64,000 bases of DNA from Nitrospirota bacterium (GTDB lineage: Bacteria; Nitrospirota; Nitrospiria; Nitrospirales; Nitrospiraceae): contig JAUSMA010000069.1 of NCBI GenBank assembly GCA_030645475.1, positions 186,001 through 250,000 of the forward strand. Direction: 5' to 3'. Both the position numbers and the translations under genes were made by a program. The notes under the pieces were generated by a model. The model was not told the origin of the DNA and made no database searches. It saw only the letters and a list, made by a program, of their open reading frames with translations. Shown here one piece after another: positions 37,106 through 47,088 of this stretch (position 1 is the stretch's first letter; every line of letters begins with the position of its first letter).

Positions 37106-37167
37106 TTGACAGGGGAGCCGTTCAAGTAGTATTAAAATGACCAGAATGTTTTAATTCCTACCGGAAT
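37106..37167 (+). promoter_or_regulatory. Promoter and palindromic operators of the sulfur-assimilation operon
   Basis: TTGACA (37106-37111), an 18-bp spacer and TATTAA (37130-37135). Downstream are GAAT-gtttta-ATTC (37144-37157) and ATTCC-tacc-GGAAT (37154-37167), which overlap and end 8 bp before the Rrf2 start. ATTCC/GGAAT half-sites resemble the CymR-type boxes of Rrf2 regulators of sulfur metabolism, so autoregulation is likely. Confidence 0.6.
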
Positions 37168-37175
37168 ACTCATGT

Positions 37176-37625
37176 ATGAAAGTGTCTTTGAGGGCAACGT
37201 ACGGGATCATGGCGGCTGTCGACTTAGCGATGCATCTTGGGACGGCGCCTGTTCAGGCCAAATCGATTGCACGCCGGCAAGCCATCCCTGCTCGCTTTCT
37301 CGAGCAGGTCCTCCATGGAATGAAGAAGGCCGGTCTTGTGTCGAGTCTTCGAGGTGCTCAAGGGGGCTATGTGTTGTCGAAAAAACCGTCCGAAGTATCG
37401 GTCGTCGAAATCCTCGAAGCACTCGATGGCCCGCTTTCAACCCCGAGCGGCGGCGCTGGGCGCGCACAGGTGAAACGGCTGAGTAAGCCGGAGTTGCTGC
37501 TTGGAAAGATGTGGGAGCAGGTCCATCAGGCGGAGCGCCATGTGCTCGAAGCGATCAGCGTGGAAGAATTAGCCGGGCAGCAACGAGCGCTCGAGCAAGA
37601 GCGATCGTTGATGTACCATATTTGA
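37176..37625 (+). CDS. Rrf2-family transcriptional regulator (CymR-like, no Fe-S cysteines)
   Basis: A 149-residue winged-helix repressor. It opens MKVSLRATYGIMAAVDLA and contains ARRQAIPARFLEQVL, LRGAQGGYVLSKKP and SVVEILEALDGPL, all Rrf2 landmarks. There is no Cys in the whole chain, so it cannot bind the Fe-S cluster of IscR or NsrR. It is rather like CymR, which senses sulfur status through a partner enzyme. Its stop is 7 bp before the siroheme reductase start, whose ribosome site (GAGG) overlaps the stop. It probably controls the operon that follows. Confidence 0.88.
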   Translation: MKVSLRATYGIMAAVDLAMHLGTAPVQAKSIARRQAIPARFLEQVLHGMKKAGLVSSLRGAQGGYVLSKKPSEVSVVEILEALDGPLSTPSGGAGRAQVKRLSKPELLLGKMWEQVHQAERHVLEAISVEELAGQQRALEQERSLMYHI

Positions 37626-37632
37626 GGTCATG

Positions 37633-40128
37633 ATGAGTCATACACCATTGAATACAGTTTCGATCAAGACAGAGCCCATTTCTCCTGCCATTGCCGAGGA
37701 GATCGAGACCTTTGAAGCCGAGGCGACACGCTTGGCTTCCGGCGACGTGTCGAGCGATTTGTTCAGGCCGTTTCGTCTCCAATACGGTATTTACGGACAG
37801 CGGCAAGCCGGTGTCCAGATGGTGCGTATCAAGATCCCTTTCGGTGGCATGACGGCCAATCAGCTTCGCCGCGTTGCAGAATTGACCGAGCAATATGCGA
37901 CCGGGGTTGGACATGTCACGACGCGTCAGGATATCCAGTTGCATTTCGTCGAACTCAAGGATGTGCCGACAATCATGCGTGGGTTGGCAGAAGTCGGGTT
38001 AACGACGAGAGAGGCCTGCGCCAACACCGTTCGTAATGTGACGGCCTGCCATCTTGCCGGGGTCTGTCAGGGGGAAGTATTTGACGTCACGCCCTATGCG
38101 AAAACCGTGGCGCTGCACCTGTTGCGGAACCCGCTCAACCAGAGCCTTCCCCGAAAGTTCAAGATCGCGTTCTCCGGTTGCAAACAGGATTGCGCGCTCA
38201 CACCGATTCACGATGTCGGTCTGCTCGCGGCGAAACGTGCCGATGGAGTCATCGGCTTTCGCATGGTGGCAGGCGGCGGACTCGGTTCGGCCCCTCGCCT
38301 GGCCCAGGTCCTCCGGGAGTTCACCCCGATGGACGAACTCATTCCGAGTGTCGAAGCGGTGATCCGAGTATTCGATACCTTGGGCAATCGAAAGAATCGG
38401 ACGAAGGCCCGGATGAAGTTCGTGATCGAAAAGCTGGGCTTCGAGGAGTTTAAACGTCGTTGGGAAGAGGCCTATATATCGATGGGGCATGCCCGTCCGA
38501 CCCACGAGCCCATCAAATTACTGTCGTATCCGGATGAACCTGTTCCCCTCATCATGCCGACGTCGAGTAGACCGAAGCAGGCGGCGGGGCAAACCAATGG
38601 CCATGCCAATGGCGCACCGGCGGAGACGCCGTTCGAGATGTGGCGACGGACCAATGTGGTGCGGCAGAAGCAAGAAGGTTATGTCGCCGCCGTGACCAAG
38701 CTCTTTATGGGCGATCTCACGACAGAGCAGATGCTGCTCATCGCTGATCTTGCCGATCGCTATTCCAATGGCAACATCCGGACGACGATCAATCAGAACA
38801 TGATCATTCGCTGGATACCGGAGTCGCGCATCGCCGATCTCTATGCCGATTTGGCCTCACAGGGCTTGGCCGATCCCGGCGCCGAATTGGTTGAAGATAT
38901 TATTGCCTGCCCCGGTACCGATACGTGCGGTCTGGGGATCACGTCTTCCAAGGGGCTCGCGCGGGCCCTGGCAGAGGTATTTCCAGCCGGGCGGGTTCCC
39001 GAAGATTTACATGACGTCACGGTCAAGATTAGCGGCTGTCACAACTCCTGCGCGCAACACCATATCGCCACGATTGGTTTGCATGGTGTCGGGAAGCGGA
39101 TTGCCGATCATGTCGCGCCGTTCTATGAATTGCATTTGGGCGGGAAGGTCGACGGGACCGCGAAAATCGGACAGATGGTGGTGAAGTTGCCGGCGAAGAG
39201 CGTGTCGGCGGCGATCACACATTTGATTCGCGTCTACCGGCGAGATCGCCTTTCAGGTGAAGGGTTGCCGGCCTTCATCGATCGTGTCGGCAAGATCAAA
39301 CTCAAGGACGAGCTGATTCCCTATACCATCGTTCCATCCTTTCAAGAGGACCCTACGTTTTACTATGACTGGGAAGGTGAGGCCGAGTTCGTTTTGGAAG
39401 ATCTCGGACCAGGCGAATGCGCTGGTGGCGCGCTTGAAATGATCGAGAACGGCATTCTCGAAGCCGATCAAGAGCTCTATCAGGCAAAGCTGCTTGTCGA
39501 CAACCATCAGTATTCCGTGTCGGTGAACAAGTCCTATCGGGCCGTGCTGTCTGCTGCGAAGGCGTTGCTCGTGACGGAAGGACTTGAGCCCTCGACCGAT
39601 GCAGAAACCTTCATCGAGTTTGATAGCCGCATTGCACAGAAGGGCATCGTTCCGGCGATGTATCGGGACTTGAGGAAGAGTGTTGGCGATTTAGGGCCCA
39701 AGGAGACGACCGGCGAATCGGCCCGGGAGAAGATGGTGTTTGCGAAGGGTTTCGTCGATGCCTGCCGTTCCGCCACGGAGCAGATGGGCAAAGATCTCAA
39801 GTTGGCTGCGGTGGGCCAGGCCACAGTGGTGACGGCCAGCCCGACGCCGGCGGTGAAGCCAGCGTTGTCTTCTGTCACCGCGCCTGCTGCGTCCGGTGCG
39901 CCGGTGTACGATCTGCGGGGGGTGGCTTGCCCGCTGAACTATGTGAAGACGAAGTTGAAACTTGAGATGATGGATGCGGGTGAGCAATTGGAAGTCTGGC
40001 TTGATGCAGGCGAGCCGATCAAAAACGTGCCCCTGAGCTTAAAGAACGATGGGCATAAGCTGTTGTTGCAGGAACCACTCGAAGCCGAGGCGGCTCATTA
40101 TCGGATTCTGGTCGAAAAAGTAGAGTAG
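37633..40128 (+). CDS. Ferredoxin-type siroheme (sulfite/nitrite) reductase fused to a TusA-like domain
   Basis: A ~831-residue cytosolic protein. Two complete reductase halves follow each other (about 45-290 and 335-600). Each has the C-x5-C and C-x3-C siroheme/4Fe-4S motif: Cys140/146 with 184/188 (CHLAGVC, GCKQDC) and Cys427/433 with 470/474 (CPGTDTC, GCHNSC), numbered from 37630. Typical members keep only one set. A helical HEPN-like segment (about 625-730) and a Pro/Ala linker lead to a TusA-type domain (about 757-832) with YDLRGVACPLNYVKTKL and Cys767. It sits with cysH, cysD and cysN, so sulfite reduction to sulfide is the likely role. The start at 37633 is set by GAGG 5 bp upstream; ATG 37630 is possible. 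Confidence 0.93.
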   Translation: MSHTPLNTVSIKTEPISPAIAEEIETFEAEATRLASGDVSSDLFRPFRLQYGIYGQRQAGVQMVRIKIPFGGMTANQLRRVAELTEQYATGVGHVTTRQDIQLHFVELKDVPTIMRGLAEVGLTTREACANTVRNVTACHLAGVCQGEVFDVTPYAKTVALHLLRNPLNQSLPRKFKIAFSGCKQDCALTPIHDVGLLAAKRADGVIGFRMVAGGGLGSAPRLAQVLREFTPMDELIPSVEAVIRVFDTLGNRKNRTKARMKFVIEKLGFEEFKRRWEEAYISMGHARPTHEPIKLLSYPDEPVPLIMPTSSRPKQAAGQTNGHANGAPAETPFEMWRRTNVVRQKQEGYVAAVTKLFMGDLTTEQMLLIADLADRYSNGNIRTTINQNMIIRWIPESRIADLYADLASQGLADPGAELVEDIIACPGTDTCGLGITSSKGLARALAEVFPAGRVPEDLHDVTVKISGCHNSCAQHHIATIGLHGVGKRIADHVAPFYELHLGGKVDGTAKIGQMVVKLPAKSVSAAITHLIRVYRRDRLSGEGLPAFIDRVGKIKLKDELIPYTIVPSFQEDPTFYYDWEGEAEFVLEDLGPGECAGGALEMIENGILEADQELYQAKLLVDNHQYSVSVNKSYRAVLSAAKALLVTEGLEPSTDAETFIEFDSRIAQKGIVPAMYRDLRKSVGDLGPKETTGESAREKMVFAKGFVDACRSATEQMGKDLKLAAVGQATVVTASPTPAVKPALSSVTAPAASGAPVYDLRGVACPLNYVKTKLKLEMMDAGEQLEVWLDAGEPIKNVPLSLKNDGHKLLLQEPLEAEAAHYRILVEKVE

Positions 40129-40252: not shown

Positions 40253-40960
40253 ATGGGCAGTCTATCATCGGAAGAATTGAACGCCTGGAGTGAGTCGTTT
40301 GAGGCGAAGCAGCCACAAGAGCTGTTGGCCGCAGCGATTGAGCGGTTTACGCCGAAGATCGTGCTTGCCTGCAGTTTTGGAGCGGAGGATATGGTGCTCT
40401 TGGACATGGTCCACCGCATCAATCCCTCCGTGCCGCTCTTTTATCTCGATACGGAGTTCCTGTTTCCTGAGACCTACGCGACGCGCGATCGTGTGATCGA
40501 ACAGTACGGGCTACAGCCGCAACAGGTCATTCAGGTAAAGTCGCTGCTGACGCCGGAGCAGCAGGCGGCTCAGCAGGGCGAGACTCTGTGGACGCGCCAT
40601 CCCGATCAATGTTGCGAATTGCGCAAAGTGGAGCCGCTGACCCGCGTGCTCAAGGGATTCGATGCTTGGATCACCGGCATCAGGCGGGACCAGTCTCCTA
40701 CGAGAGCCCATGCGAAACTGATCGAGTGGGACCAGAAGTTTCAGTTGGTCAAAGTGAATCCCCTCGCGAAGTGGACGTGGGAGGATGTCTGGACCTACAT
40801 TCGTGTCTACGAGGTTCCCTACAATGCACTGCATGACCGCAACTACCCCAGTATCGGCTGCACCCATTGTACGAGCCCGGTGATGCCCGGCGAAGACCCC
40901 CGCGCGGGACGATGGAAAAATTTTACCAAGACGGAGTGCGGGTTACACAAGGCCCCGTAA
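40253..40960 (+). CDS. cysH: Assimilatory adenylyl-sulfate (APS) reductase
   Basis: A 235-residue PAPS/APS-reductase-family enzyme that reduces activated sulfate to sulfite using thioredoxin. The PP-loop-like ACSFGAEDMVLLDM is near residue 38. The paired cysteines CC (120-121) and C-x2-C (203/206, GCTHC) that bind a 4Fe-4S cluster are present, marking the APS-using type. The catalytic Cys229 lies in KTECGLH near the C-terminus. It is in the sulfur operon after a 124-bp gap and is preceded by GGAAGAGAGAG. Confidence 0.95.
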   Translation: MGSLSSEELNAWSESFEAKQPQELLAAAIERFTPKIVLACSFGAEDMVLLDMVHRINPSVPLFYLDTEFLFPETYATRDRVIEQYGLQPQQVIQVKSLLTPEQQAAQQGETLWTRHPDQCCELRKVEPLTRVLKGFDAWITGIRRDQSPTRAHAKLIEWDQKFQLVKVNPLAKWTWEDVWTYIRVYEVPYNALHDRNYPSIGCTHCTSPVMPGEDPRAGRWKNFTKTECGLHKAP

Positions 40961-40965
40961 TATTG

Positions 40966-42021
40966 ATGCAGGAATTTATTGCGAAAATTGCCAAGGGGCC
41001 AAGGGCTGCCAAGGATCTGACCTGGGACGAAGCGAAGCGGGCGATGAAGGCACTCATTGAAGGAGAGGCCACGCCGGCACAGGTGGGGGCCTTTCTCATT
41101 GCCATGAGAATAAAGATGGAGTCCGTTACTGAATTGGCTTCGATGACCGCGACCGCACGTTCGTATGTCGCGCCTGTGCCGATCCCCCGAGAGCTCGGTG
41201 TCGTGGATCTGCCGAGTTACGCAGGGAAGCAGGAAACCTTTCATGCCCTTGCGGCTGCCGCCATCGTGGCAGCATCGGCCGGTGCGTCGGTGTTGATGCA
41301 TGGCTATGACGGGATTCCCGGTCGCGCGGGGAATGCCGGGGTGCTCAAGGCCCTGGGCTTGCCGATTGACATGGAGCCGAAAGTCGCGGCAGAGGCGGTG
41401 AAGAAGCATGGGTTCGCCTATCTCGACATCGCTTTGTACCATCCCCCGGTCTATCGCTTTTTGGAGATGCGACAGGAGTTGGGAGCGCGGAACGTTTTTC
41501 ATCCGATTGCAAGACTGTTGAATCCGGCTCGCGCCGCGTCACAGGTCGTCGGTCTGTCTCATCCGCCTCACTTTGAAAAGACCGCTGAAGTGTTGCGGAT
41601 GTTGGCCTGTCCGCGGGCGCTGGTGGTCAGCGGCGTGGAAGGTGACCCAGAGCTGTCGATTAGCGCACTCACCAGGGTGTTGGAATTGCGGGATGAGCGG
41701 ATTACCCCTCTCTCGTTCGCATCAAAAGATGCCGGATTGCCGCTGGGCACGCCGCGCGACATGGCCGGCTTTCCGTCGGACCAGCGAGACAAGGAAGCCG
41801 ATCTGCTTCGACGGATTCTCCATAATCAGGTCCAGGGCGGGTCGCACAACTGGGTATTGATGAATGCGGCCTTGATTTTGTACGCCGCAGGCAAAGGCGC
41901 GACGTGGACGGCCTGCATTCCGCTGGCGCGGCGAGCGCTCGAAGAGGGAGCCGCGGCACGAAAGTTAGAAGAGCTGACACAGGAGCCGGTGGGCACAGGC
42001 GTCCCCGGACGAACCCATTGA
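40966..42021 (+). CDS. TrpD2/YbiB-like protein of the anthranilate phosphoribosyltransferase family
   Basis: A 351-residue protein with the two-domain TrpD fold: an N-terminal helical domain with [19 protein letters not shown], then [33 protein letters not shown] and [18 protein letters not shown]. The TrpD catalytic loops are altered. GTGGD is replaced by PSYAGKQ, and KHGNRSVSS by [10 protein letters not shown]. Anthranilate phosphoribosyl transfer is therefore unlikely; YbiB/TrpD2 proteins are described as nucleic-acid binding. It lies between cysH and cysD with 5-20 bp gaps. No clear ribosome site. Confidence 0.85.
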
Positions 42022-42041
42022 CACAGGAGAGGATCGAGTCC

Positions 42042-42839
42042 GTGCGACATCTTCGTCAATTAGAAGACCAGAGCGTCTACATTCTCCGGGAAGCCTATAA
42101 ACATTTCGATAACCTGGCCATGTTGTGGTCGATGGGGAAGGATTCGACCGTCCTGCTGTGGCTGGCCAGAAAAGCCTTTTTTGGCCATGTCCCGCTTCCG
42201 CTTCTCCATGTCGACACGAGTTACAAAATTCCGGCCATGATCGAATATCGAGATCGAGTCGCCCGCGAATGGGGCCTTAAATTGGTCGTGGGGCAAAACA
42301 AGGAAGCGCTTGCGGCCGGGATGAATCATACGCTGGGCCGCGTCAATTGCTGTACCGCCTTGAAAACCAATGGGCTCAAGCAATTGATCGAACAAAAGGG
42401 CTATACGGGCATCATTCTCGGTGTGCGGGCAGACGAGGAAGGGACCAGAGCCAAGGAGCGCTATTTCTCACCGCGCGACAAACATGGCGATTGGGATTTC
42501 CGCGATCAACCACCGGAACTCTGGGATCAATTTAAGACGACCTTTCCTCCGGGGACCCATATCCGGATCCATCCGTTGCTGGATTGGACGGAAATCAACA
42601 TTTGGGAATACATCAAATACGAGAACATTCCCTTCATCGATCTCTATCTCGACAAGGGGGACGGGACTCGTTATCGCAGTCTCGGCTGTGCCCCCTGTAC
42701 CACGCCGATCAAATCGACGGCGAAGACCGTGGATGAGATTATTGACGAATTGCGGCATACCACGGTGGCGGAGCGATCGGGCCGGGCGCAGGATGAAGGG
42801 CGCGGGATGGAGCTACTCCGCAAAGACGGCTACATGTAG
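42042..42839 (+). CDS. cysD: Sulfate adenylyltransferase subunit 2
   Basis: The catalytic subunit of ATP sulfurylase: ATP plus sulfate gives APS and pyrophosphate. 265 residues starting [16 protein letters not shown] after a GTG codon. The PP-loop is [19 protein letters not shown], with [44 protein letters not shown] and [11 protein letters not shown]. The GTG at 42042 is chosen for GGAGAGG 9-13 bp upstream; E. coli CysD is ~300 residues because of a longer C-terminus. A repeat element separates it from cysN. Confidence 0.94.
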
Positions 42840-42966: not shown

Positions 42967-42977
42967 GGAGAGTGAAA

Positions 42978-44822
42978 ATGGCGGAAATAATTTCGAAATC
43001 ATCGGACAATCTCAACATCGTCATCGTCGGGCATGTGGACCATGGCAAATCTACCTTGCTGGGGCGGCTCTATGCCGATACGGGATCGTTGCCGGACGGC
43101 AAGCTCGAAAAAGTTCAAGCCATCTGTCAGCAGCAGGGGAAGGAATTCGAGTACGCATTCCTGTTCGATGCCTTCCTGGAAGAGCAGGAGCAGGGGATCA
43201 CGATCGATACGGCGCGGACGTTCTTCGGCTGGAAGGGCCGGCAATACATCATCATCGATGCGCCGGGGCATAAGGAGTTCCTCAAAAACATGATTTCCGG
43301 GGCGGCCCGTGCTGAAGGGGCGTTGTTGCTGATCGATGCCTTGGAGGGCGTGAAGGAGCAGTCCAAGAAGCATGGCTATCTCTTGTCGCTGTTGGGCGTT
43401 CGCCAATTTGCCGTCGTGGTGAACAAGATGGATCTGGTCGGCTATCGGCAGGATGTATTCGACGGGATCGAAAAGGAATACCGCGAGTTTCTCGGGCAAT
43501 TCAAGGCGGTTCCGCAGCAGGTTATTCCGGTCAGTGCCAAGCTCGGCGATAATATCGCCAACCGGAGCGAGCAGATGCCCTGGTACAGCGGTCCGACCGT
43601 GCTGGATGCGCTCAGTGCGTTCAGAAAGGAGCCCGGACGTTCCGAGCAGCCGCTTCGCCTGCCGGTTCAGGACGTGTACAAGTTCGACGCCCGCCGCATC
43701 ATCGCCGGACGTGTGACGGCAGGCCAATTGAAGGTCGGCGATTCACTGGTGTTCTCGCCCTCGAATAAGCGGGCGACGGTCAAATCGATTGAAGCGTTCA
43801 ATGTGGATCCTCTGCCGGTTGAAGGCCATGCAGGCCAGTCCGTTGGTGTCACACTCGATGAGCAGATCTTTGTCGAGCGGGGAGAGGTGGCGTCGCATCA
43901 GGAGCAGCTTCCACTCGTGTCGACCGCCTTTCGAGCGAATGTGTTCTGGCTGGGCCGGAAGCCGTTGGAGCGAGGACGGCGGTATCAGCTCAGAGTGGCG
44001 ACGAAGGAAGTGGATTGTGAAGTTGCCACCATTCACCGGATCATCGACACGATGGATCTGGCTCAACAGCAGGGTAGCAGTGTGGTGAATAAGAATCAGG
44101 TTGCAGAGATTACCATTCGAGCCAAAGCGCCGGTGGCGTTCGATCTCTCGGCTTCGTTCGAGGCGACTGGCCGGTTCGTTCTCGTGGATGAGTACGACAT
44201 TGCCGGTGGCGGCATCGTGACAGAACTGGTCCATGACGATCAGGAGTTCCTCCGGGAAGAGGCTCGGCAGCGCGACTTTGCCTGGGTGAAGGGGGAGGTC
44301 GGGGTCGAGGATCGCGCGCAACAATATGGTCATCGCGCCGCGATTGTGTTGGTGACCGGGGGGCGGCATACGGGGAAGTCGTTCTTGGCCAGGACTATCG
44401 AGGCCCGGCTTGTGGCAGATGGCCGGCATGCCTACTTGCTCGACGGAGGCAATCTCCGACGCGGGCTTGACGCAGACCTCTCGGAAGGAGAACGAGGACA
44501 GGCGACCGAGATGGCTCGCCGTTATGGCGAAGTGGCGAGGTTGCTGGTGGATACCGGGTTGATCGTGGTCTCGACGACCAATCCCTTCGGGCTGGCCTAT
44601 GTCGAAGCGGCACAGGCTATTCGAACGCTCGTCCACCCGGTCCCAGTCATCGCGATTCACATGAGCAAGGCGCCAGAAGAGGCTCCGCCAAATACGGATA
44701 TCGTGTTGTCAGGCCCGACAGACTTTGATGCAGCTACTCGACGAATTCTTGAGGAGTTGAAACGGCGTGGAGTTCTGGCTCAGGCGATCGGGGCGAAGCC
44801 GACCTTTCAATATTCGATCTGA
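42978..44822 (+). CDS. cysN: Sulfate adenylyltransferase GTPase subunit fused to a degenerate APS-kinase domain
   Basis: 614 residues. The CysN part (about 1-425) is an EF-Tu-like GTPase: P-loop GHVDHGKST, switch region [17 protein letters not shown], and NKMD. It drives APS synthesis with CysD. The C-terminal ~170 residues resemble CysC: P-loop [11 protein letters not shown] and [20 protein letters not shown]. There the conserved DGDN Asp is Gly, and the later substrate motifs are not recognisable. As the reductase is of the APS type, APS kinase is not needed, which fits decay. ATG 42978 is set by GGAG 7 bp upstream. Confidence 0.93.
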
Positions 44823-44946: not shown

Positions 44947-45348
44947 ATGTCACCTTCTCTATCTGACTCGCAATCGGTTCTCTCTCTTACTTGACGAAGC
45001 CTATGAATCGGCTGAGAATGTGCCGCGCCATTCATGCGCCTCTGGGTCGGAGGCAGGTGTTGTGGGAGACGAAGAAGCGGTGGTGTGGTCCTGGGAATGC
45101 ATTAGGACGCACAGGATGACAGCTAACGCGCGAGCGGGCACTCCTGGTCGTCCCGCGGAAAGCCATGTAGATTCAGAAGCTTGCGCAATTGCCTGTCCTC
45201 CGCATGGCCTGGGATTAGCAGGCAGTTTCTGCCGGTATTGCCGAAATGATTTGGACGTCGAATTATAGTTAGAGCGACGACAATCGATCGGGCACACCGA
45301 AAGCACACCAAACACGCCGTCAGCGCTTTAATAGGGAGACCATTGCCG
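44947..45348. other. Non-coding stretch before the AIPR gene
   Basis: About 400 bp without a convincing gene. Open frames on both strands lack ribosome sites and sensible composition. It contains GCTAACGCGCGAGCGGGC near 45122. GGGAGA lies just before the AIPR start. No tRNA or attachment site is evident. Confidence 0.5.
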
Positions 45349-47088
45349 ATGATTGCTCAGATCCAGCGAGAAATTGCCGAGGACCCGTACTACCGAAACA
45401 ACTTCGACAACGATGGGCAGCGCTTCATCGCCTGGTACCTCCGACGCGTGCTCCTGCGTGACGACGCGCAGACCCGCGATGACATCACGGACGGACCGAA
45501 CGACAAGGAGATCGACGCCGTGATCGTGGATGAAGAGGAACAGCGCATCGTTGTGATTCAGGGCAAGTTCATCACGGCTGGCCAAGTGGATGGTGGGCCG
45601 ATTCAGGAAGTCCTGACCGCATGGCTGAGGATCCAGAAGTTGGACTCGCTACAGAAGGACTGCAACGAGCGACTCAAGAAGAAGATCGAAGCGATCCGCA
45701 CCGCGCTGGATGAGGACTACCGGGTGGAGTTTGAGTTACTGACCACGGGGACGCTCACGCAGGCCGCGCAGGCCGACCTCAAGGCATTCGCCGAGCAAGT
45801 ATCGGAGTTCGAAGACTTCTCGGCGAGTCTGCACCTTATCGACACCGAGATGTTGACCGCGCGTCTTGCCGAGGCAGAAAACACAGTGCTTCCATCGCTG
45901 GAGCACACAGTCACGCTCGATCCCGCCAAGATTGTCCACACGCCATTTCCGAGCGCAAACACTATCATCGCCATGCTCCCGCTTACGGAATGCCTCAAGT
46001 TTCCCGGCATTACCGACGGGCGGCTGTTCGCAAAGAACGTGCGGCAATCACTCGGCAGCAACAACAAGGTCAATCGCGCATTGAAACGGACCATCCACGG
46101 CGAGCGCGTCCGCGACTTTATGTTCTACCACAACGGAATCACTGCGATCTGCGACTCCATGACTATGAGCGCCGACCGAACCAAACTAACGCTCAAGGGC
46201 GTGAGCGTGGTCAACGGCTGCCAATCGCTGAGCACGATCTACACATGTTCCGAGCGAGTCCGTGCTCCGGAAGCCAAAGACGCCCACATCCTTTTTCGGT
46301 TTTACGAGATCAAGGATCGCGCCTTTGGCGACCACATCAGCATCAATACCAACTCGCAAAGTGCCGTTAAGCAGCGTGATCTACGCAGTAATGATCGCGT
46401 GATGGTGGGCCTGAAGAAGGCGTTCGAGACACGATACCCGACCGGAGCATTTCTTACCAAACGTGGCGAAATGGCACCCGAGGACAAGGTCAAGACGCCC
46501 GAGCTCGTGATGGATGCCTCCTCATTCGGTAAATGCGTGATGGCGTGGCACTGTCAACGCCCGAATATCTCGCACAATGAGAACAAAGTTTTTGACGAAT
46601 ACTACAAGACGCTGTTCCGCACTGCCTATCCGCCAGAGAACATCGCCGCGTTGAACGGCTGGATTCAGGCTATCGAGAAGGCGTGGCCGAATCTAAATAT
46701 GAACAACGAGTTGCGGGCGGGACGGTCTCACGTCAAGTACCACATCCTATTCGCGGTGTCGTCTCTCATCGCTGCCATCAATAAGCAGCCCCAGGCCGTC
46801 GTGGCACCGGGGGCCACGACGAAGGCGCTGGAACAGGCCAGTGATATTCTTTCAATGGCCGCTACCTGCGTCGAGAACGCCATGCAGAATGCGCTTATTC
46901 AGACTCAGACCGCCGGTAAAATATTTAGTCCGCAAAACTGGCTCAAGAGCAACTCCAGTTGGCAGGGGGAAACGCTCGTCGCAGGAACACAAGCGGGCAT
47001 GTTGTCGGGTTTCCCCACGGGTCCAGGACTCATCGAGCGGATGAAAGCTCCACCGACGGCATTCAGCCCTCGATGGTCGGCGGAATAG
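45349..47088 (+). CDS. AIPR-family protein (putative abortive phage infection)
   Basis: A 579-residue cytosolic protein with the AIPR (PF10592) pattern. An N-terminal nuclease-like part has KEIDAVIVDEEEQRIVVIQGKF (D...V-x-QGK, reminiscent of the restriction-endonuclease core). Later come LFAKNVRQSLG, DFMFYHNGITAICDS, GVSVVNGCQSLSTI and INTNSQSAVKQRDLRSND. Members are tied to abortive phage resistance and sometimes sit next to restriction-modification genes; none are present here. ATG 45349 is 9 bp after GGGAGA. Codon use has more CGC/GCG and fewer CGG/GTC patterns than its neighbours, and it lies between repeats, so horizontal gain is likely. Confidence 0.85.
   Translation: MIAQIQREIAEDPYYRNNFDNDGQRFIAWYLRRVLLRDDAQTRDDITDGPNDKEIDAVIVDEEEQRIVVIQGKFITAGQVDGGPIQEVLTAWLRIQKLDSLQKDCNERLKKKIEAIRTALDEDYRVEFELLTTGTLTQAAQADLKAFAEQVSEFEDFSASLHLIDTEMLTARLAEAENTVLPSLEHTVTLDPAKIVHTPFPSANTIIAMLPLTECLKFPGITDGRLFAKNVRQSLGSNNKVNRALKRTIHGERVRDFMFYHNGITAICDSMTMSADRTKLTLKGVSVVNGCQSLSTIYTCSERVRAPEAKDAHILFRFYEIKDRAFGDHISINTNSQSAVKQRDLRSNDRVMVGLKKAFETRYPTGAFLTKRGEMAPEDKVKTPELVMDASSFGKCVMAWHCQRPNISHNENKVFDEYYKTLFRTAYPPENIAALNGWIQAIEKAWPNLNMNNELRAGRSHVKYHILFAVSSLIAAINKQPQAVVAPGATTKALEQASDILSMAATCVENAMQNALIQTQTAGKIFSPQNWLKSNSSWQGETLVAGTQAGMLSGFPTGPGLIERMKAPPTAFSPRWSAE

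Follow-up and report, generated by a model that had tools for sequence, protein, structure and literature searches.

The window, a stretch of DNA of 64,000 nucleotides from a Nitrospirota bacterium, carries on its forward strand a gene (37630..40128) for an 832-aa protein that ORF analysis, Pfam, conservation and fold search identified as a fusion of sulfite reductase, HEPN and TusA. The ORF starts at 37630; the preliminary description had started it at 37633, the second of two adjacent ATGs. The genome is of the Nitrospira type, the nearest named locus being that of a Nitrospira sp. MAG with 99% identity, and holds one copy of the fusion reductase; a 553-aa NirA-like reductase is encoded separately, and two further genes encode standalone TusA. 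The fusion gene is the conserved sulfite reductase (SiR) gene of Nitrospirales.

In Nitrospirales the gene lies in the operon rrf2-SiR-cysH-trpD2-cysD-cysN, and in several other Nitrospirota families in the order rrf2-aprA-aprB-SiR-sat. Since its neighbours are either cysH, cysD and cysN or aprAB and sat, the enzyme occurs with either sulfate-activation module, and the operon supplies sulfite through CysH/CysD/CysN in Nitrospirales and through AprA-AprB-SiR-Sat in other Nitrospirota. In the window, all genes of the operon are on the forward strand. The first (37176..37625, Pfam Rrf2 104 bits) encodes a CymR/IscR-like Rrf2-family regulator below the equivalog cut-offs (NCBIfam CymR, 99.9 bits against 195), and rrf2 adjoins the SiR gene in most relatives. 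Upstream of it, a promoter-like sequence (37106..37134, + strand) consists of TTGACA (37106-37111), a 17-bp spacer and GTATTA (37129-37134), and is conserved among relatives as TTGACA/GTATxx. Just before rrf2, alignment of upstream regions revealed the conserved, putatively operator-like sequence TTCCTACCGGAATA (37155..37168, + strand), and a match to the operator-like site TTCCnAnCGGAATA was present in 77 of the 86 upstream regions. The palindromic operator-like site and the promoter (37106-37168) were thus common to Nitrospira relatives; no Rfam match was found near the operon. The conserved promoter and operator-like site suggest that the Rrf2 protein may regulate its own operon according to sulfur status.

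Downstream of the fusion gene, a CysH-type (P)APS reductase with CC...CxxC cysteines (40253..40960; NCBIfam PRK02090 283 bits, cut-off 154) is followed by a TrpD2-like glycosyl/phosphoribosyl transferase family protein (40867..42021, start uncertain), a CysD-like sulfate adenylyltransferase subunit (41904..42839, start uncertain; PRK05253 362 bits, cut-off 195) and, by profile matches, a CysN large subunit of sulfate adenylyltransferase with an APS-kinase-like C-terminal domain (42972..44822). The TrpD2-like gene is kept inside the Nitrospirales sulfate-assimilation operon and was also seen beside AprAB-SiR in locus L115. The C-terminal P-loop domain of CysN scores far below the full CysC/CysNC models, and may be a degenerate or shortened kinase. 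Between cysN and an mrp-like gene, the window encodes an AIPR/AbiU-like protein (45343-47088; PADLOC AbiU 135 bits, weak MzaE). No AIPR gene was seen near SiR in the loci of relatives, many of which reach mrp, and the gene looks like a local insertion.

Within the 832-aa protein, Pfam found two NIR_SIR, two NIR_SIR_ferr, one TusA and one HEPN domain above cut-off. The reductase part is thus a tandem of NIR_SIR_ferr/NIR_SIR halves within one chain. The N half consists of NIR_SIR_ferr (residues 55-122) and NIR_SIR (residues 131-280) at 37792..38469 on the + strand, and its profile aligns to that of the C half with E=7e-23. The reductase core matched NirA-type enzymes in fold search (Z 18.7), and the solved structures nearest by sequence were siroheme nitrite and sulfite reductases. 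The protein belongs to none of the CysI, NirA and Sir equivalogs, missing every named NCBIfam cut-off (NirA, 280 bits against 523; ferredoxin-nitrite reductase, 245 against 594; CysI, 138 against 757; sir, 124 against 732). It is not a DsrAB protein either, with 73 of 342 bits for TIGR02066, 34 of 393 bits for TIGR02064, and different motifs. No dsrB above cut-off was found in 22 genomes that all have an SiR of this fusion family, and ten Nitrospirota genomes with dsrB gave only distant matches to the fusion protein. Two AlphaFold runs, with 22 sequences (mean pLDDT 57) and with 77 sequences (mean pLDDT 61, pTM 0.43), had low confidence in the core because only close relatives were usable in the alignment; the models suffice for domain folds but not for judging how far C597 and C767 lie from each other and from the active site.

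We weighed whether the enzyme is mainly a nitrite reductase, as its nearest solved structures by both sequence and fold (NirA/Nii) would favor. This role was judged very improbable and rejected: sulfate-activation genes lie alongside wherever the pathway context was seen, the NirA cut-off was missed, and nitrite is already covered by the separate NirA-like gene of the same genome. The protein would be an assimilatory and probably ferredoxin-dependent sulfite reductase, the donor being a point that we infer.

The N half carries the cysteine quartet C140-x5-C146/C184-x3-C188 (38047..38193, + strand), and the C half C427-x5-C433/C470-x3-C474 (38908..39051, + strand), the latter corresponding to C434, C440, C479 and C483 of CysI, which hold the catalytic siroheme-[4Fe-4S]. 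All eight ligand cysteines, and likewise C130 and C597, were identical in all 129 aligned sequences, that is, the window protein and 128 homologs, all from Nitrospirota and some nearly identical, so that the count overstates independence. The conservation of the cysteines is far beyond chance. At the N-half cysteine columns, E. coli CysI reads N,L,P,D, which bears out the preliminary description in that both halves keep the full C-x5-C/C-x3-C set, unlike ordinary assimilatory enzymes. In the outgroup alignment, the N-half cysteines were gone in CysI and in the Bacteroidota, proteobacterial, Deinococcus and Chlorohelix enzymes, two of four were kept in Thermus oshimai (C,S,C,H), and three of four in the NirA-like protein of the same genome, Haladaptatus and Planctomyces. 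Since the N-half set is incomplete in the outgroups, having both sets complete is a genuine trait of the Nitrospirota clade, and with its N-half quartet complete the enzyme falls outside the canonical single-cluster aSiRs. A wider sample revealed exceptions. In all seven genomes of family f31, which span three genera, the N half reads C,S,C,H (C146S, C188H), and these proteins still carry TusA with only C140 and C184 left; in another genome (G350) it reads C,C,C,R (C188R).

By alignment to CysI, the sulfite/siroheme-binding set of the fusion enzyme is R66, R99, R135, K176 and K178 (37825..38163, + strand), equivalent to R83, R117, R153, K215 and K217 of the E. coli enzyme and invariant in all 129 sequences. 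The protein therefore combines CX5CXnCX3C in the C half with the Arg/Lys set in the N half. These five basic residues are located only in the N half; half-to-half profile alignment placed V355, N388, E422, D462 and T464 at their C-half counterparts, where 117 of the 129 sequences have none of five basic residues and the other 12 have one. In the siroheme reductase fold, one unit contributes the basic residues that hold a siroheme and the other unit the cluster (PMC10229431). The N-half cluster could therefore carry a second siroheme only with basic counterparts in the C half. DsrA and DsrB from ten other Nitrospirota genomes were taken as the control. In DsrAB, the structural siroheme is faced by DsrB, which has Arg/Lys at four of these five positions (the equivalents of R66, R99, K176 and K178), and DsrA matches the N half of the reductase in its cysteines and in R66, R135, K176 and K178.

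These comparisons bear on the two-cofactor reading in the preliminary description, which in its strong form is probably wrong: the C half is without the basic residues for a second siroheme/sulfite pocket, and the natural members of f31 dispense with half of the N-half ligands, contrary to two equivalent sirohemes, a reading that was rejected. A chain that works as a fused DsrAB-like pair, with siroheme-[4Fe-4S] on both halves and the N-half one structural as in DsrA, would accord with the invariant motifs of both halves, with the alignment of the N half to DsrA, and with the structural siroheme kept in DsrAB (PMC10229431). We nevertheless consider it distinctly unlikely, because the C-half equivalents of the basic set, four of five of which are kept in DsrB, are non-basic here, and because C146 and C188 are lost in f31 and C188 in G350; basic residues do not surround both pockets as in a two-siroheme enzyme. 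From the residues, one catalytic siroheme and an accessory Fe-S site per chain are most likely. The catalytic siroheme-[4Fe-4S] would sit on the C half, with sulfite bound by the five basic residues of the N half. The N-half quartet most likely holds a second [4Fe-4S] without siroheme, as a retained ancestral, structural or electron-relay site; that the accessory site is a [4Fe-4S] cluster is probable, and this last step is one that we infer. A purely vestigial N-half motif that binds nothing, which is compatible with either view of TusA, appears rather doubtful. The losses in f31 and G350 speak for it, as does the retention of three of four cysteines in siroheme nitrite reductases such as the NirA-like protein and Haladaptatus; the retention of four of four throughout the first sample speaks against it and implies selection. 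Most lineages keep the quartet very well, as would hardly be expected of an unused site, and this counts against our preferred explanation.

The reductase core ends in a GECAG motif (residues 595-599; 39412..39426, + strand) with the invariant C597. The motif GECA is also found at the end of the core in Bacteroidota, and the Thermus oshimai enzyme has its very C-terminus at ...RGECAV, so that the cysteine equivalent to C597 is the third-last residue. By analogy with the C-terminal cysteine of DsrC, C597 is hypothesized as a candidate first acceptor of sulfur.

Residues 598-724 (39421..39801, + strand) form a helical bundle of HEPN fold. The match to Pfam HEPN is partial (residues 610-656) and weak by sequence, 23.4 bits against a cut-off of 22, and the profile matched all 22 aligned homologs. 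The bundle was predicted better than the rest of the 77-sequence model, and fold search with it returned AF_0298 (2hsb) at Z 15.4 with an rmsd of 2.7 over 119 residues, together with HEPN proteins at this Z and below, which supports the HEPN-like segment of the preliminary description. The R-x4-6-H RNase motif was absent from the window protein and from 110 of the 129 sequences, and a role as RNase or toxin was rejected. Because the window protein has no such motif, we take the bundle to be structural or to serve dimerization; it would be a linker or dimer domain without nuclease function.

The C-terminal TusA domain (residues 760-830; 39907..40119, + strand) scored 57.2 bits against a Pfam cut-off of 28.6 and matched TsuB in fold (Z 10.3), with the conserved Cys-Pro pair C767-P768 in CPxN. 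The domain is of the CPxN[FY]VKTKL type, in common with one standalone TusA of the same genome. It was kept in 127 of the 129 sequences, all 127 with C767, and the reactive cysteine that had been proposed is therefore intact. The fusion is the arrangement in nearly all aligned Nitrospirota, and is retained phylum-wide down to about 44-50% identity. Other arrangements were also found. The SiR of G139 is without the domain and is followed, about 45 bases downstream and on the same strand, by a TusA gene. G017 and G035 have a TusA gene directly behind a different, single-unit siroheme reductase of 332-335 aa with an inserted ferredoxin domain. In G069, the SiR has neither the domain nor an adjacent tusA in the operon. 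Beyond Nitrospirota, no TusA fusion was seen in plasmid records, where the best matches covered at most 81% of the query, and a search of the open-access literature brought up neither a description of a sulfite reductase-TusA fusion nor one of this Nitrospira enzyme.

These arrangements suggest that freshly reduced sulfur could be passed directly to the carrier instead of being released. The preliminary description had TusA catching product sulfide as a persulfide, and the hand-over is probably right in outline, given the independent neighbourhoods of TusA and sulfite reductase; the wording is chemically doubtful. Conversion of free sulfide to a cysteine persulfide needs oxidation, the persulfide sulfur being at the S0 level. 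A persulfide on C767 would therefore have to derive from an intermediate bound to the siroheme or from TusA in oxidized form, and could not come from free sulfide. The description of a self-contained machine from sulfite to sulfane sulfur was overstated, as no electron-donor domain is fused. S0 has been reported as the direct product of four aSiRs (PMC13188885), and an aSir-type arginine, here R99, has been interpreted as indicating full six-electron reduction (PMC10229431). R99 thus argues against a product at the S0 level.

In our preferred explanation, which we hold with somewhat better than even confidence, the protein is a variant of assimilatory sulfite reductase with one catalytic siroheme, an N-half cluster, a HEPN linker and a tethered sulfur carrier. 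Reduced sulfur would leave the active site bound to TusA as a C767 persulfide, possibly by way of C597 of the GECAG tail, and TusA would pass it on to acceptors further along, for example ThiS/CysO-type carriers that are activated by E1 and feed CysK. The two standalone TusA genes, and G069 with its SiR without TusA, count against this explanation. The alternative is an ordinary six-electron SiR that releases sulfide, in which the TusA tail serves tRNA/cofactor sulfur supply, regulation or partner binding and takes no sulfur from the active site. It gains from R99, from the presence of CysK in the same genome and from the absence of TusA in G069, and seems rather unlikely to us in view of the siroheme reductases that are paired with a separate TusA gene and the persistence of the fusion across the phylum-wide divergence.

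Possible acceptors are encoded on another contig of the same genome (C60, locus L173, 2147-7633), in a cluster of ThiS, CysK, E1, a second PLP enzyme, a second ThiS/MoaD-like protein, NIL, E1 and JAB. Both E1 proteins consist of the ThiF domain alone, without rhodanese. Sulfite reductase operons were described as always containing SirA, that is TusA, where the E1 is without rhodanese, and ThiS as fused to sulfite reductase in two actinobacteria, Nocardioides and Acidothermus (Iyer et al. 2006, PMC1779556). The gene set of the cluster fits the one tied there to sulfite reductase and SirA/TusA, and the cluster probably provides Nitrospira with a protein-thiocarboxylate route to cysteine or homocysteine. 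All 30 genomes checked had JAB, whether they carry SiR-TusA or DsrAB; the survey therefore does not discriminate, and the route is possible without being specific to the fusion enzyme.

Compared with NirA (1zj8), maize SiR (5h8v) and E. coli CysI (1aop), the fusion enzyme shares two NIR_SIR halves, the five basic residues and the catalytic C-half quartet, and adds the full N-half quartet, the GECAG tail, HEPN and TusA. The Bacteroidota and Thermus nitrite/sulfite reductases (L135-L137) share the GECA motif and, in Bacteroidota, a C-terminal extension that aligns to the helical bundle; both are without TusA and have an incomplete N-half set or none. With the ThiS-sulfite reductase fusions and SirA operons (PMC1779556), the common feature is that an assimilatory SiR is linked to a sulfur carrier, either by fusion or by operon; here, in another phylum, TusA/SirA itself is the carrier, and a HEPN bundle joins it to the reductase. 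In DsrAB-DsrC, as in the fusion enzyme, one half gives the anion-binding residues and a second cysteine set and the other the catalytic cluster, and a sulfur-carrier protein acts on the product, which for the fusion enzyme is a prediction, with TusA in place of DsrC. The fusion enzyme differs in being a single chain without an inserted ferredoxin domain, DsrA and DsrB being separate and having such insertions, and in having CX5CXnCX3C instead of CXnCCX3C and Arg instead of Thr at R99; no DsrC-family gene was found in the window's genome. The enzyme might even be a one-chain analogue of DsrAB and DsrC, reducing sulfite only to the S0 level, with C597 or C767 removing sulfur from siroheme and sulfide never released; we regard this as possible, if somewhat on the unlikely side.

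Nitrospira are leading nitrite oxidizers and comammox organisms. If the one-chain analogue were true, the sulfur assimilation of nitrite oxidizers and comammox bacteria would branch at TusA-bound sulfur. Whether assimilatory SiRs release H2S or S0 is debated, S0 having been reported as a direct product (PMC13188885), and a tethered carrier makes the question directly testable. Natural controls are at hand in the variants that have or lack the second cysteine quartet and in those whose TusA is fused, adjacent or absent.

Operons of the type AprA-AprB-SiR-TusA-Sat were seen at L115, L118, L119, L120, L122, L123, L125, L126, L163 and L164. The Nitrospirota families with this arrangement pair a dissimilatory-type APS reductase with an assimilatory-type SiR, and those tested had no dsrB above cut-off. 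At L133 (6208-9465) of G139, a 1086-aa protein was found in which a NirB-like disulfide oxidoreductase part is followed by both NIR_SIR halves, with some of the N-half cysteines kept.
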